From positions 62,001 to 126,000 of IMG/VR virus record IMGVR_UViG_3300047369_000650: a stretch of DNA of 64,000 bases, one strand, 5' to 3'. The position numbers were made by a program, and so were the translations under genes. The notes under the pieces were generated by a model. It made no database searches. It had not been told where the DNA came from and saw only the letters and a list, made by a program, of their open reading frames with translations. Below, piece after piece: positions 34,721 to 62,530 of the stretch (the first letter of the stretch is position 1; each line of letters starts with the position of its first letter). The DNA comes from a virus.

Positions 34721-35488
34721 TTATTTATTGTACCAATCTAAATCTGGATTTACAATACTAACAGATTTGCCTTTTATTGGTGCAATATTCATCGGAGATT
34801 TCTTAACGCTTCTTATAGACATCTCGAAAGTAAACTGGTAATTACCGCCACCTTTTGCTTGTACTCTCGCTCTATAACCTAGAGTTGCTGCTTGACTAAA
34901 TCTAGGAACACCTTTAAATTTTAAAGGATTAGATGCACCAAGTAAATAGAATCCTGTAGTACCTACATTCATATAATATGTTTTCTTTTTATTGTAATAT
35001 TGTTCAATGTTTGTTGCAGGTATTTCAGCTTTAATTTCTTCAAATCTTTTTAACTCTTTTGCATAGATAGCTCGTTTATCAAGGTCTTTTATTTCATCTC
35101 TGAGTTCTGGTTTGTTTGAAAACTTATAAGGCTCATTTTTCCATTTTTTGTTAATAGCATCTAAAACACCATATCTCATAGCCAGATCACGAATAAATAT
35201 TTTTTCTTCTTCATTTGGTTTTGGTTCATCAAAATACCATTTACCATTTGCATATTTAATTACTAAAGATCCGCCAGAAGCTCCTGGGGATATTTTTAAT
35301 TCACACCCCGCTTCCTTACCTGCTCTTTGAATCATTAAATCTGGGATATCAGAACCAGCACCAGCCGGAGTAAATTTTTTCGGTACAATGCCCATAGGTT
35401 TTAAAACCTTTACCGCATTTATTTCATATTGAAACCCTTGTTGTGCAGTACTAGCCATTTCTGTAATATACCCTTTAAATGATTGCAT
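34721..35488 (-). CDS. Putative PD-(D/E)XK nuclease with T4-like capsid-targeting N-terminus
   Basis: 255 residues from the ATG at 35488, chosen because AGGA lies 8 bases before it; an in-frame ATG at 35494 is only 2 bases from AGGA. The first ten residues (MQSFKGYITE) resemble the 10-residue capsid-targeting sequence of T4 internal proteins (MKTYQEFIAE) and end in the I-x-E site cut by gp21. GSDIPDLMI followed by GCELKIS matches the PD...ExK nuclease core (about residues 46-66), with an upstream helix Glu in FQYEINAV. It has its own minus-strand late box. It is probably packaged in the head and injected; nuclease activity is a prediction. Confidence 0.6.
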   Translation of the reverse strand: MQSFKGYITEMASTAQQGFQYEINAVKVLKPMGIVPKKFTPAGAGSDIPDLMIQRAGKEAGCELKISPGASGGSLVIKYANGKWYFDEPKPNEEEKIFIRDLAMRYGVLDAINKKWKNEPYKFSNKPELRDEIKDLDKRAIYAKELKRFEEIKAEIPATNIEQYYNKKKTYYMNVGTTGFYLLGASNPLKFKGVPRFSQAATLGYRARVQAKGGGNYQFTFEMSIRSVKKSPMNIAPIKGKSVSIVNPDLDWYNK

Positions 35489-35520
35489 AATCATAGTCCT
35501 ATTAAAATGATGCTTTATGT

Positions 35521-35528
35521 TATTTATA
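35521..35528 (-). promoter_or_regulatory. T4-type late promoter box TATAAATA, minus strand
   Basis: An exact box on the minus strand, 32 bases upstream of the nuclease-like gene start. It lies only 11 bases from the plus-strand late box at 35540, making a compact divergent pair. Confidence 0.75.
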
Positions 35529-35539
35529 CTTTTATTTTT

Positions 35540-35547
35540 TATAAATA
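35540..35547 (+). promoter_or_regulatory. T4-type late promoter box TATAAATA
   Basis: An exact box 27 bases upstream of the lipase ATG, within a T-rich stretch, and divergent from the 35521 box. Confidence 0.8.
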
Positions 35548-35574: not shown

Positions 35575-36330
35575 ATGTTATCCAGATTATCATTTAAGGA
35601 AAGAAGTTTATTATTTGGTAGACTAGCAACTATAGCATATTTGCCTTTTGAAGATGCAAAAAGAGCTGCTAGACGATTAGGTTTTTCACAAACCACTTTT
35701 TATGATAGAGATGGAGCACAAGCATATAGATTTATGAGTAAATATGATATTGTTATTGCTTGTAGAGGCACTGAACCAACTCAATGGAATGATGTAAAAG
35801 CAGATTTAAAAGCAATTCCTGTTATGGCAGAAACTATAAGCAGAGTACATCAAGGATTTAAAGCCGAAGTTGACGATTTATGGCCAATGATTAAACCGCA
35901 TCTTGAAGTCAAAGTAAATGTAAGAAAAAAGCTATGGTTCTGCGGACATAGTTTAGGTGCTGCAATGACAACTATTATGGCTAGTAGAGCATTTCATGAT
36001 GAGAAGCTCGCAGATCCAGTTGAAGTTTATACATATGGCTCACCAAGAGTTGGTTGGAAAAAATATGTTAAGAGTCTAGGAATGATTCATCACCGATTCG
36101 TAAATAATAATGATGTAGTTACTCGTGTTCCTCTTTGGATTATGGGCTATAGACATCATGGTACTATGCACTATTTTAATAGACATGGAGATTATAGTAA
36201 AGCCACAGGTTGGAGACGAGTAAAAGATAGATTAATGGGAATGTGGATGGGCTTAAAGAAAGGTAAGATAGACAACATTGGTGATCATCCAATGGGTGCT
36301 TATATGCCATGTTTAGAAAAAATGCAGTAG
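35575..36330 (+). CDS. Class 3 lipase-like alpha/beta hydrolase
   Basis: 251 residues. CGHSLGAA holds the nucleophile Ser126 of the GxSxG elbow; IVIACRGTE (residues 59-67) is the class 3 oxyanion region; RFVNNNDVVTRVP supplies the catalytic Asp180, and GDHPMGAYM a candidate His238. The triad order and spacing are those of fungal-type class 3 lipases. No signal peptide is seen. The late box and the overlapping murein-hydrolase-like lipoprotein gene suggest a role at lysis, attacking membrane lipids; a virion enzyme is an alternative. Confidence 0.8.
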   Translation: MLSRLSFKERSLLFGRLATIAYLPFEDAKRAARRLGFSQTTFYDRDGAQAYRFMSKYDIVIACRGTEPTQWNDVKADLKAIPVMAETISRVHQGFKAEVDDLWPMIKPHLEVKVNVRKKLWFCGHSLGAAMTTIMASRAFHDEKLADPVEVYTYGSPRVGWKKYVKSLGMIHHRFVNNNDVVTRVPLWIMGYRHHGTMHYFNRHGDYSKATGWRRVKDRLMGMWMGLKKGKIDNIGDHPMGAYMPCLEKMQ

Positions 36331-36797
36331 GTGTTTTCTGTTTAAGTTTTCTTATAGCGTGTCAACCTATAGAAGAAACTTTAGATATATCCAAACCGGC
36401 TGAGCAATATATCGGTTTAGACGAATATAAAAACAGAAAACAATTAAAAGAATTAGTGGGAGTTGATCCTGTTCATACTGAATGGTGTGCAGCATTTGTA
36501 AATTTTGTTCTTGATATACAAGATATACCTGGTTCTGAATCAGTAAGTGATTATCCTCTCATGGCTAGATCATTTTTGACTTGGGGCGAAGAAGTTTTAG
36601 ATAAGCCCATAAAAGGAGATATTGTAATATTTCCAAGAGGCGGTAAACTATGGCAAGGTCATGTCGGATTCTTTATAAGAGAAGTTCAGTATGAAAATAG
36701 AACAAGATGGATTATACTAGGCGGAAATCAAGATAATACTGTAAGTTATGCAGAATTTAATCCTAAAAAAGCAATAGCAATTAGAAGAAAAAAGTAA
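36309..36797 (+). CDS. Lipoprotein with CHAP/NlpC-like murein hydrolase domain (TIGR02594-like)
   Basis: 162 residues. The first 18 residues form a lipoprotein signal (basic start, AVGVFCLSFLIA, lipobox Cys18). The rest fits the TIGR02594-type CHAP-like fold: TEWCAAFVNFVL gives catalytic Cys60, GHVGFF gives His118, and LGGNQDN gives the polar third residue. It starts inside the lipase gene (22-base overlap), so the two are coupled. It is probably a peptidoglycan amidase or endopeptidase exported to the periplasm and lipid-anchored, part of the lysis set. No holin is evident nearby. Confidence 0.75.
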   Translation: MFRKNAVGVFCLSFLIACQPIEETLDISKPAEQYIGLDEYKNRKQLKELVGVDPVHTEWCAAFVNFVLDIQDIPGSESVSDYPLMARSFLTWGEEVLDKPIKGDIVIFPRGGKLWQGHVGFFIREVQYENRTRWIILGGNQDNTVSYAEFNPKKAIAIRRKK

Positions 36798-58943: not shown

Positions 58944-59273
58944 ATGGATGATGAATTAAATAATGTTACAGATGTTTCAGACGAAAACATCGAAAGTCTT
59001 GAAGATATTGATACAGTAGATACATCTGCTGAAGAAGATACAAGTGATGAACCAGAAGTAGAACTAGATCCAATCGAAGCGATGATATCGTCTATTGAGG
59101 ATAAAGATTTTGTAAATTCTTCAAATATTTTTAATAATTTGGTTTCTGATAAATTAGCAGATGCAATTGATAATAAAAGAATTGAATTAGCTAATAGATT
59201 ATATAATAACGCACCTGAAGAAGTAGATGCAGAAGTAGATATGGAAGTAGAAGTAGAAGATGAAATCGTTTAA
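58944..59273 (+). CDS. 67: Prohead core protein, gp67-like
   Basis: 109 residues, strongly acidic, with a NIFNNLVSDKLADAIDNKRI helix resembling core proteins of T4-like phages. Position directly before gp68- and gp21-like genes supports gp67. It would be part of the inner scaffold and be degraded by gp21. A 14-base overlap leads into the next gene. Confidence 0.7.
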   Translation: MDDELNNVTDVSDENIESLEDIDTVDTSAEEDTSDEPEVELDPIEAMISSIEDKDFVNSSNIFNNLVSDKLADAIDNKRIELANRLYNNAPEEVDAEVDMEVEVEDEIV

Positions 59274-59454
59274 AACTTTAAAAGCCAGCTTAGATGAATC
59301 TAAGAAGATGAAAGTTAAAGGCATTGCAATTGAGATTGTAAAGGTCAAAAATAAGTTTCAGGCTAAAGTTGATGGTGACGTTTTAGATACTTATGCTTCG
59401 GAAAAAGAAGCTGAGAAAATGGCGAAAGAATTCGTCAAACAGTATAAAGGATAA
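59260..59454 (+). CDS. 68: Prohead core protein, gp68-like
   Basis: 64 residues, basic (MKSFKTLKASLDESKKMKVK...). Size, charge and the place between gp67-like and gp21 genes match gp68, a minor scaffold protein affecting head shape. Sequence similarity is too short for certainty. Confidence 0.65.
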   Translation: MKSFKTLKASLDESKKMKVKGIAIEIVKVKNKFQAKVDGDVLDTYASEKEAEKMAKEFVKQYKG

Positions 59455-59458
59455 AACT

Positions 59459-60112
59459 ATGAAGCTTATTGCGGAATACAATGATCAAGAACTATCTTAT
59501 GTTACCGAAGAGGTAGATGAGAGTGGTAAGAAAAACTATGTGATCGAAGGTATCTTCGCACAAGCTGAAAGTAAGAATAGAAACGGCAGAATCTACCCTA
59601 GAGGTATTATGGAGTCTGCAGTTCATAAATTTGCGACTGAACAAGTTGCAACTAAGAGAGCGGTTGGAGAGTTAAATCATCCAGAAGGACCAACTGTTAA
59701 CTTAGATAAGGTTTCGCATCGCATTACCGAGATGACTTGGGAAGGTAATAATGTGATGGGGAAAGCGCTTATATTAGATACTCCAATGGGAAACATTGTA
59801 AAAGGTCTCCTCGATGGTGGTGTTCAACTAGGCGTTTCAACTCGTGGTATGGGAAGTCTTGAGAATCGTAATGGGACAATGTATGTAAAGGAAGACTTTA
59901 TGTTAAACACTGTCGACATTGTACAAGATCCATCTGCTCCAGAAGCTTTCGTTAATGGGATTATGGAAGGTGTAGAGTGGGTTTGGAACAATGGTGTTAT
60001 TCAACCTCAAGATATTGAAGAAATTGAGACTGAAATTAAAAAAGCTCCGCGTGCTGATATGCATTTAGTGCAGGAACGTGAGTTTAAGAATTTCCTCTCG
60101 TTGCTCAAATAA
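59459..60112 (+). CDS. 21: Prohead protease gp21
   Basis: 217 residues from the ATG at 59459; a frame-compatible upstream TTG would lie in gp68. NRNGRIYPRGIM, GELNHPEGPTVNL (catalytic His) and LGVSTRGMGSL (catalytic Ser) are the conserved herpes-like assembly protease core, and VDIVQDPSAPEAFV follows. It matures the prohead by cutting at (I/L)-x-E sites in gp22, gp23 and packaged internal proteins. Confidence 0.95.
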   Translation: MKLIAEYNDQELSYVTEEVDESGKKNYVIEGIFAQAESKNRNGRIYPRGIMESAVHKFATEQVATKRAVGELNHPEGPTVNLDKVSHRITEMTWEGNNVMGKALILDTPMGNIVKGLLDGGVQLGVSTRGMGSLENRNGTMYVKEDFMLNTVDIVQDPSAPEAFVNGIMEGVEWVWNNGVIQPQDIEEIETEIKKAPRADMHLVQEREFKNFLSLLK

Positions 60113-60126
60113 AAGAGGAGTCAAAC

Positions 60127-61179
60127 ATGACTGATCAAATACAAGACCAGGAAGTTGAGCTCGATGAAGCAGCGGAAGTTGTGGACGAAGCTCATGATCC
60201 TAAAAATGCAGAAGCTCAATCAGTCGACAGTGTCGATAAAGCAGCTAAAGCAGTAACAAAACAGGCGCCAATTCCGAAAACAAAAGCGGGAATGGTTAAT
60301 GCTATGTACGGTAAGCTACAAGCAATGAAAAAAGCGGATCTTCAAGCGTCATATAAAACTATGATGGGCGAAGAAGTTGAAATCGAAGATGAGATTGTTG
60401 TCTCAGAACATAAAGAAGACCTTCAAGCACTTATTGCTAACGAAGAGGGTCTTGCGGAAGGTTTCAAAGAAAAAGCCGCTACAATTTTTGAAGCAGCTGT
60501 TAATTCAAAAGTGAATGAAGCAGTAGCTAAGAAAGAAGCTGAACTCGAAGCAACTATTGCTGAAAGAGTAACAGCCCTTGAAGAGCATTATGCAACAGAA
60601 ATTGAAGAAGGTCTCAACGAAACACGTGGAGAGCTTGTTGAGAAAATCGACAGCTATCTAAACTATGTAGTTGAAACTTGGATGGAAGAAAACAAATTGG
60701 CTGTAGAAGCTGGTTTGAGAACAGAGATTGCAGAAACATTCATGAACAATTTGAAAGACTTGTTTACTGAATCTTATATCGAAGTTCCAGAATCCAAAAT
60801 TGATCTTGTGGACGATTTGGTAGAGCAAGTTGAAGAGCTTGAAAGCCAATTGAATTCACAAACAGAGAAAAACATGGAAATGTCAGAATCTGTAAAATCA
60901 ATGAAAAAAGAAGTTTGCATTCGTGAAGCTTCTAAAGACCTAGCAGAAACACAAGTTGAAAAACTTAGAAGTCTTGCTGAAAGTGTTGACTTTACAACCG
61001 AAGAAGATTTTGCTTCAAAAATCTCTACACTTAAAGAATCATATTTTGCTCAGAAACCTGTAGAAACTACAGAAGCACCAGTAGAAATGGTTAATGAAAG
61101 TGTTGTAGAAGAAGAAGCTGATGAAACAGAAATTTCAAGCAACATGGATAAATATCTCTCAGCATTGAGAACATCTTAA
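60127..61179 (+). CDS. 22: Prohead scaffold protein gp22
   Basis: 350 residues, acidic and mostly helical/coiled-coil (for example KEAELEATIAERVTALEEHY and DDLVEQVEELESQLNSQTEK), ending in SSNMDKYLSALRTS, a typical gp22 end. It is the main core scaffold around which gp23 assembles and is digested by gp21. GAGGAG precedes the start by seven bases. Confidence 0.9.
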   Translation: MTDQIQDQEVELDEAAEVVDEAHDPKNAEAQSVDSVDKAAKAVTKQAPIPKTKAGMVNAMYGKLQAMKKADLQASYKTMMGEEVEIEDEIVVSEHKEDLQALIANEEGLAEGFKEKAATIFEAAVNSKVNEAVAKKEAELEATIAERVTALEEHYATEIEEGLNETRGELVEKIDSYLNYVVETWMEENKLAVEAGLRTEIAETFMNNLKDLFTESYIEVPESKIDLVDDLVEQVEELESQLNSQTEKNMEMSESVKSMKKEVCIREASKDLAETQVEKLRSLAESVDFTTEEDFASKISTLKESYFAQKPVETTEAPVEMVNESVVEEEADETEISSNMDKYLSALRTS

Positions 61180-61198: not shown

Positions 61199-62530
61199 AT
61201 GTCTAATACATATAAAAATCTCACAGAGAAATGGGCACCAGTGCTCAACGAAGAATCAGCAGGTAAAATCGATGATTCTTACAGAAAATCAGTAACAGCT
61301 GTAGTTCTTGAGAATCAAGAAAAAGCTCTTGCTGAGCAGCGTCAAGCAGAGCAAGGTTTCTTGTCAGAAAACGCTCCATCAAATAACACCGGTTCAGTAG
61401 GTAACTGGGATCCAATCCTTATCTCACTTGTACGTCGTGCAATGCCAAACATGATGGCTTATGATGTATGTGGTGTGCAGCCAATGACTGGACCAACAGG
61501 CTTGATCTTCGCAATGAAGTCACGCTATGGTGCAGGTGCAACAACCTCAACTGAAGCTCTATATAACGAAGCAAATACTGCTTGGGGCGGAGATTCAACA
61601 GGTGCTAACGGTTCAGCAGGTCCATCAGGTCTTTCTGGTGTAACTGATGCTGCAGCAGATGGTTCACTCGATAATGACCGTGTAGCTAACGGCTTTGCTG
61701 GTGGTATGCCATTAACAGATGGTGAAGCACTTGGTAATACATCATCTACTTTCAACGAAATGGGTTTCACCATTGAAAAAGCAACTGTGTCTGCAAAAAC
61801 ACGTGCGTTGAAAGCAGAGTATAGCCTAGAGCTAGCACAAGACTTGAAAGCAATTCATGGTCTTGATGCAGAATCAGAATTGGCAAATATCTTGTCAACA
61901 GAGATTCTTGCGGAAATCAACCGTGAAGTAATCCGTACAATTAACTCACAAGCTAAGACTGGTGCTGCTACAGCTCAAACCGCTCTTAATGGTGTGTTTG
62001 ATCTTGCAAACGATGCTGATGGCCGTTGGTCAGTAGAGAAGTTTAAAGGTCTTATGGTACAAATCGAGCGTGAAGCAAATACAATTGCTAAAGAAACTCG
62101 TAGAGGCCGCGGTAACTTCATCATCACATCATCAGACGTAGCATCATGCTTGTCTGCAACAGGTATGCTTGATTATGCTCCGGCATTAGCAACTAACCTA
62201 AATGTAGATGATACAGGTAATACTTTTGCTGGTGTTCTTAACGGACGCACAAAAGTATATATCGATCCATATGCAACAACCGATTATGTAACCGTAGGTT
62301 ATAAAGGTACTAATGCATATGACGCCGGTGTATTCTATTGCCCATATGTACCACTAACTATGGTACGTGCCGTAGGTGAGAATGACTTCCAGCCAAAAAT
62401 CGGGTTTAAAACTCGTTACGGCATGGTATCAAACCCATTCGTAGGTGCAAACCCAGCGAGCGGTCTTGCTGCAGCAAAAACCAATCAGTACTACAGAATC
62501 TTCCGTGTGGATAACATCCTTAACGCATAA
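61199..62530 (+). CDS. 23: Major capsid protein gp23
   Basis: 443 residues. The N-terminal peptide contains GFLSE/N (after Glu57), a likely gp21 cut site, followed by WDPILISLVRRAMPNMMAYD and GVQPMTGPTGLIFAMKSRYG, hallmark gp23 sequences with the HK97 fold. The codons look more G/C-ending than in most of the window, as expected for the most abundant virion protein. Two terminator hairpins follow. Confidence 0.97.
   Translation: MSNTYKNLTEKWAPVLNEESAGKIDDSYRKSVTAVVLENQEKALAEQRQAEQGFLSENAPSNNTGSVGNWDPILISLVRRAMPNMMAYDVCGVQPMTGPTGLIFAMKSRYGAGATTSTEALYNEANTAWGGDSTGANGSAGPSGLSGVTDAAADGSLDNDRVANGFAGGMPLTDGEALGNTSSTFNEMGFTIEKATVSAKTRALKAEYSLELAQDLKAIHGLDAESELANILSTEILAEINREVIRTINSQAKTGAATAQTALNGVFDLANDADGRWSVEKFKGLMVQIEREANTIAKETRRGRGNFIITSSDVASCLSATGMLDYAPALATNLNVDDTGNTFAGVLNGRTKVYIDPYATTDYVTVGYKGTNAYDAGVFYCPYVPLTMVRAVGENDFQPKIGFKTRYGMVSNPFVGANPASGLAAAKTNQYYRIFRVDNILNA

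Follow-up and report, generated by a model that had tools for sequence, protein, structure and literature searches.

RESULTS AND DISCUSSION

We identified a gene in a marine T4-like phage whose product, P0001, is probably a late-expressed nuclease-type enzyme that is packaged by means of a T4-type capsid-targeting sequence (CTS), trimmed after E10, and ejected together with the phage DNA. The capsid-targeting tag is well supported because it combines position-specific conservation, a frequency beyond chance controls, the presence of gp21 and gp22 genes in the same genome, and agreement with the published virion proteome of another phage. The protein behind the tag is a likely, although unproven, PD-(D/E)XK nuclease.

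The gene and its source

Coordinates refer to the window, the stretch of 64,000 nucleotides analyzed here, which belongs to a virus contig of 177,535 bp (IMGVR_UViG_3300047369_000650). The complete gene for P0001 occupies positions 34721..35488 on the minus strand, in agreement with the strand and coordinates of the initial annotation, and encodes 255 amino acids plus a stop. Of two in-frame ATG codons, we preferred the one at 35488 over that at 35494, because the Shine-Dalgarno sequence AGGA (35497..35500, minus strand, recognized from the sequence) lies 8 nt before the former and only 2 nt from the latter, and because the relative L001 (89% identity) has only the start equivalent to ATG 35488. 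The major capsid protein is closest to those of Phage C48C1, Methylophilales phage Melnitz, and Pelagibacter phage HTVC008M (61-66%), and the source virus is therefore a marine T4-like myovirus.

P0001 has more than 150 viral relatives and matches PHROG_26930, a group of unknown function (E 4e-20). Among 84,980 prokaryote genomes, the sole cellular match was a weak one with 27% identity (L233, on a Nonlabens xiamenensis contig), so the family is essentially viral. The Nonlabens relative is possibly located on a prophage.

A ten-residue tag at the N terminus

The first ten residues of P0001, MQSFKGYITE (35459..35488, minus strand), very probably send the protein into the phage head. We recognized them by conservation and by mapping onto T4, where the first ten residues are sufficient and where suppressor mutants assign residues 4 and 7 to targeting and residues 8 and 10 to processing by gp21 (PMC9026906). 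The N terminus of T4 ipII/ipIII, as read from NC_000866, is MKTYQEFIAE. It shares only three identities with P0001 (M1, I8, and E10), and the two sequences correspond aromatic for aromatic at positions 4 and 7 and as I-x-E at positions 8-10. The T4-type alignment proposed in the initial annotation thus holds at the mapped positions (F4, Y7, I8, and E10), and the gp21 site that it placed at the end of residue 10 is present as I8-T9-E10. The predicted cut after E10 falls between 35459 and 35458 on the minus strand and leaves M11-ASTAQQGF... as the new N terminus. The predicted N-terminal peptide of the uncleaved protein is GYITEMASTAQQGFQYEINAVK, and the predicted semi-tryptic peptide of the cleaved N terminus is MASTAQQGFQYEINAVK.

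The tag is kept in 18 distinct and diverged relatives, with variants such as MQSLITYIGE, MKNFKGFITE, MRSFTNYIAE, MHGFKEYVTE, MERFKRYISE, and MLTFKKYITE. Across the tagged relatives, positions 4, 7, 8, and 10 are conserved and positions 2, 3, 5, 6, and 9 vary. Position 4 is F or L and position 7 is Y or F in 18/18 tagged members (F4 and Y7 here), and all tagged relatives carry I/V/L-x-E at positions 8-10, the predicted gp21 site. The N terminus of untagged relatives, MAAQQGF or MAQQGF, coincides with the residues that immediately follow the tag in tagged ones (e.g., MDSFKGYISE/MAAQQGF). Most of the family lacks the tag, including cyanophage members in replication-gene clusters, and the basic role of the enzyme therefore needs no tag-mediated packaging. 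In a core-only tree with its root placed on the distant cyanophage branch, the presence of the tag requires two changes, which we read as one gain and one loss; the root sits on a long branch and is hence unsure. One relative (L104:3881-4744) has a longer propeptide, MKTFKAYLEE...NEGTRRTFIRE/AVTAQQGF, in which another I-x-E site immediately precedes the core.

The tag motif occurs at gene starts beyond chance. In this genome and the contigs of the 80 first relatives, M..[FY]..[YF][ILV].E was present at 37 of 855 gene starts, compared with a mean of 0.075 (maximum, 1) in 200 shuffles of the same N termini and with 2 of 4349 internal methionines. When 2.9 million viral contigs were searched for DNA encoding M..FKGYI.E, 38 stretches were recovered, which with two or three exceptions lay at gene starts. 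These stretches head many unrelated proteins, as would a portable address.

The initial annotation had suggested looking for the same tag elsewhere in this genome, and P0001 emerged as the sole clear match (score, 22.2; next score, 7.3). The runner-up resembles a signal peptide and is missing the E. We also rejected an open reading frame at the gp68 position (59260-59454, plus strand), which starts with MKSFKTLKASLDE, is loosely tag-like, and scored -2.1; this small frame adjoins gp21. A scan of Pelagibacter phage HTVC008M with a relaxed tag pattern returned no tags.

Head-assembly genes and a late promoter

The genome encodes the proteins with which such a tag would interact, all on the plus strand. 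The gp21 prohead protease (Peptidase_S77; 59459..60112, start chosen from the sequence; PF03420, E 9e-44) is the predicted processing enzyme, and the gp22-type scaffold or core protein (60127..61179; PF25623 T4_CASP, E 3.6e-64) is the presumed docking partner. They are followed by the gp23 major capsid protein (61199..62530; PF07068, E 2e-147), which contains a candidate gp21 site, ...GFLSE/NAPS, that resembles the YITE of the tag.

A T4-type late promoter box, TATAAATA, lies at 35521..35528 on the minus strand, 32 nt from the start codon of P0001. Over-representation of the octamer was discarded as proof of a late box, with 12 copies seen and 15 expected in the window. Position was informative: of the 29 copies in the whole genome, 12 precede by 12-45 nt a gene start that has a ribosome site, the corresponding figure for permuted words being 2.9%, and the copies supported in this way include those of the gp67-position gene and of tail genes. 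These positions validate the minus-strand late box of the initial annotation, from which P0001 would be transcribed. A TATAAAT/ATAAATA box also precedes nearly all tagged relatives. Since such a box is found in tagged and untagged relatives alike, late timing is a trait of the family and by itself no argument for packaging. A second, divergent TATAAATA box (35540-35547, plus strand) lies upstream of a class-3 lipase (35575-36330, plus strand; PF01764, 4.6e-20), and a CHAP-domain-like protein (36309-36797) is encoded downstream of the lipase.

Tagged proteins in virions

To test independently how the tag relates to virion content, we used cyanophage S-CREM2, for which a published study reports 52 of 219 proteins by mass spectrometry of purified virions (PMC10665884). 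A tag profile trained only on IMG/VR metagenomic tags was applied to all 219 annotated S-CREM2 N termini (OR473000.1). The top five were gp6, gp13, gp14, gp136, and gp154; they comprise a cytidylyltransferase (MKNFSSFLTE; score, 20.3), an APH/ChoK-like kinase (VKRFDAFLTE; 15.4), gp13 (MKDLHSFLTE; 9.9), a SAM hydrolase (MKDFDSFLEE; 9.8), and gp136 (MQTFSMFFSE; 7.3). The sixth protein scored -2.3, and no protein absent from the virion list scored above zero. All five tagged proteins (5/5) are in the list (Fisher p=6.5e-4; PMC10665884), and the same test against the non-structural virion proteins alone gave 4.4e-5. With a stricter cut of 10 bits, two proteins are left and the result is marginal (p=0.056). 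The authors leave open co-purification or contamination of these enzymes, and we found no mention of the tag in the parts of that paper that we consulted (PMC10665884). The tag would explain the virion presence of the SAM hydrolase, the kinase, and the other tagged proteins. Two further S-CREM2 proteins deserve mention. Near its N terminus, gp12 (annotated as Cas9-like and listed in virions) contains ...PLRFASFMAEAAVDQ, possibly a tag behind a mis-annotated start, and gp15 (MNFSEFNES) may have a shorter variant of the tag.

T4-GC190 has been shown by experiment to be a virion protein (PMC3037559). Its member in phage P-SSM2, PSSM2_194, starts with MKSFSQFLTE; the homologue of P0001 in this phage, PSSM2_192, is encoded two genes before it. 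The homologue in S-SCSM2R starts with MKSFSKFFSE.

A nuclease-like core

Behind the tag, P0001 has the residues of a putative nuclease-type active site: E22 in helix alpha-1 at the motif I position (codon 35423..35425), P49-D50 as motif II (35339..35344), and E63-(L/V)-K65 as the ExK of motif III (35294..35302), all on the minus strand. No variation was seen at E22, P49-D50, E63, or K65 in an alignment of 41 sequences, tagged and untagged, with about 30-89% identity to P0001, and the order and spacing of E...PD...ExK are those of PD-(D/E)XK enzymes. An AlphaFold2 model built from 39 close relatives had no fold match in the PDB. Confidence improved in a second model from a wider alignment (pLDDT, 89.9; pTM, 0.82), with low confidence at residues 4-11. 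In it, a helix at 4-32 that carries E22 is followed by strands at 51-55, 58-65, and 71-80 and a helix at 94-105. The order is thus alpha-beta-beta-beta; D50 immediately precedes the first of these strands, and ExK closes the second.

Similarity searches were less conclusive. No credible family was found in Pfam for P0001, 39 aligned close relatives, or distant homologues, and neither two profiles nor one homologue matched any PDB sequence. Foldseek with the second model retrieved no significant solved structure from the PDB; the match of highest probability was the Holliday resolvase Hjc (0.18, not significant). Against viral models, all significant matches were to uncharacterised proteins, with the P-SSM2 relative ranking first. 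Named proteins appeared below threshold, among them two Holliday resolvases, two VRR-NUC proteins, and one PD(D/E)XK protein. With hhalign, the P0001 profile aligned to Hjc in the right register, yet 3 of 60 column-shuffled controls scored higher, and we make no claim from this alignment. Of the PD-(D/E)XK core in the initial annotation, the E/PD/ExK residues are present and invariant; no significant match to a known nuclease was obtained. Given the invariant residues, the matching order of secondary structure, and the sub-threshold nuclease-like fold matches, we assign P0001 tentatively to the nucleases and consider a nuclease fold likely.

Genomic neighborhood

DUF6267 genes lie near P0001 relatives at 11 of 17 tagged and 29 of 40 untagged loci. 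DUF6267 (PHROG_455) is of unknown function and occurs in hundreds of cyanophages; many of its members are themselves tagged, usually so beside the nuclease (e.g., L016:4957-5937, L018:5556, L011:5466-6683, L014:6397, and many more), and carry a KYDG/KWDG motif. Read as a motif, KYDG/KWDG would be that of a ligase-type nucleotidyltransferase, typical of ATP-dependent ligases. In the cyanophage branch, tagged T4-GC190 accompanies the nuclease at 17 of 18 loci. At two loci (L007 and L106), the nuclease is followed downstream by a HAD protein with a match to phage polynucleotide kinase (PHROG_415, 1.5e-9); the one in L007 (1946-2491) is tagged (MISFKSFITE) and directly follows a tagged nuclease. 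In the present genome, the nuclease has no tagged companions and adjoins the class-3 lipase, which has a divergent late box of its own, and tblastn with the cargo of the relatives (DUF6267, T4-GC190, HAD, HD, and others) found none.

Proposed mechanism and alternatives

We propose that P0001 would be transcribed late from TATAAATA and that tag residues 4 and 7 would dock it on the gp22 core inside the growing prohead, a step that we infer from T4 and from the virion data on other tagged proteins. The gp21 protease would then cut after I-T-E at residue 10, and the mature enzyme would start at M11, the counterpart of the residue with which untagged relatives begin. It would presumably remain with the packaged DNA, leave with it at infection, and act on nucleic acid in the new cell before any phage gene is expressed. 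As for its target, processing or repair of DNA at entry is tentatively and slightly favored, because the neighbors of relatives include tagged DUF6267 (KxDG, ligase-like), a HAD protein resembling polynucleotide phosphatases, and a nucleotidyltransferase carried in virions. We give somewhat less weight to the possibility that it attacks the DNA of the host or of a defence element. A nuclease packed with the phage's own DNA requires protection or specificity. Packaging of such an enzyme is feasible but needs control, since T4 CTS fusions to EcoRI and staphylococcal nuclease were packaged and delivered (PMC9026906) and the packaged staphylococcal nuclease cut the packaged DNA upon calcium addition (PMC3012670).

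The tag could be a true CTS and its cargo no active nuclease, but an internal protein with a nuclease-like fold that binds DNA or protein. The lack of a significant known-nuclease match in sequence or fold is consistent with this, and T4 IPI, an injected inhibitor of a restriction enzyme, offers a precedent (PMC3012670). However, an IPI-like inhibitor would have no need of the four putative active-site residues that are invariant in 41 sequences, which makes such a protein unlikely. An enzyme packaged via the tag might instead act in head assembly or DNA packaging, trimming or resolving prohead DNA and not working in the next cell; the late promoter and the Holliday-resolvase-like hints would both suit that role. 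T4 uses late nucleases for packaging. Yet T4-type CTS proteins are loaded before DNA entry and delivered with the DNA (PMC9026906, PMC3012670), and the cargo tagged elsewhere appears to have metabolic or anti-restriction roles (SAM hydrolase, NMNAT-like, and kinase), so we consider a role confined to assembly rather improbable.

We regard it as improbable, too, that the N-terminal motif is no capsid tag here and that P0001 is an ordinary late or replication-associated cytosolic nuclease whose ten residues serve another purpose. That homologues in cyanophages have no tag and are surrounded by replication genes, and that this genome has one tagged gene only, would fit such an enzyme, but conservation at the four T4-mapped positions, the chance control, and the test against the S-CREM2 virion data all argue for a tag. 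A packaged and injected nuclease-type enzyme is thus the reading that we prefer.

Comparison with known systems

P0001 resembles the T4 internal proteins IPI, IPII, and IPIII in its ten-residue N-terminal tag, with aromatics at positions 4 and 7 and I-x-E at 8-10, in its late box, and in the company of gp21 and gp22 in the genome. It differs in that its tag precedes a conserved nuclease-like enzyme of ~245 aa for which we detected no relation to the internal proteins, in being the one tagged gene of its genome, and in that its packaging is a prediction. The CTS fusions of the Black laboratory (EcoRI and staphylococcal nuclease) likewise carry a nuclease into the head by a T4-type tag; they are artificial, whereas P0001 is natural and conserved across a phage clade, with packaging again predicted. 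Tags of the same kind are found on virion enzymes of T4-like cyanophages, namely the T4-GC190 cytidylyltransferase/NMNAT-like protein and the SAM hydrolase and APH/ChoK-like kinase of S-CREM2, and cyanophage homologues of P0001 share a cluster with T4-GC190. These enzymes have other activities and were detected by mass spectrometry.

Archaeal and viral Hjc and VRR-NUC proteins have the same order of E, PD, and ExK at similar spacing and give weak fold matches. The similarity is significant in neither sequence nor fold, and the C-terminal half of P0001 (NYQFTFEM...) has no counterpart that we could find. DarB of phage P1 is also packaged via an N-terminal signal and delivered, but the P1 signal spans >9 and <=30 residues and has no consensus shared among Dar proteins (PMC9024508), and DarB, an anti-restriction protein, protects DNA and does not cut it.

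A proposed portable tag in marine phages

The T4 CTS was previously known from a few coliphage proteins and as an engineering tool, and the literature that we examined contained no description of the tag in marine T4-like phages. We see about an even chance that these phages (Kyanoviridae and relatives) hold a modular arsenal of head-packaged enzymes, all bearing one portable ten-residue tag and injected at time zero, with P0001 as an active nuclease among them. The proposed arsenal would include nucleases, ligase-like and polynucleotide-phosphatase-like proteins, a SAM hydrolase, kinases, NMNAT-like proteins, and others. If the tag works as an address, the packaged, and so injected, proteins of abundant ocean phages could be predicted from gene starts alone. 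It would also account for enzymes repeatedly found in cyanophage virions, for which authors could not exclude contamination. A natural head-packaged nuclease raises the question of how a DNA-cutting enzyme is carried beside the phage's own genome and what it cuts on arrival.

Several unrelated proteins were found behind the same tag. Four of them (L165:599-1405, L073:6550-7992, L025:15370-16362, and L163:1504-2430, minus strand) have motifs such as VDVKI..FEVKGAN, ISLKKAGGSQ, and GNDFNLV..GETKAG and, on a reading of these motifs, look like further PD-(D/E)XK nucleases; those searched had no Pfam match. Another tagged family, characterized by ...FHVT...LQ.KK.SISAF... (L185:6532-7428, L176:328-1302, L181, and L197), perhaps has an ADP-ribosyltransferase-like fold as in T4 Alt, and the one member searched had no Pfam match. 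Finally, L012:9566-10099 encodes a tagged HD-domain hydrolase (MESFKQYISE; HD_4, 3e-16) that is perhaps ppGpp-hydrolase-like.
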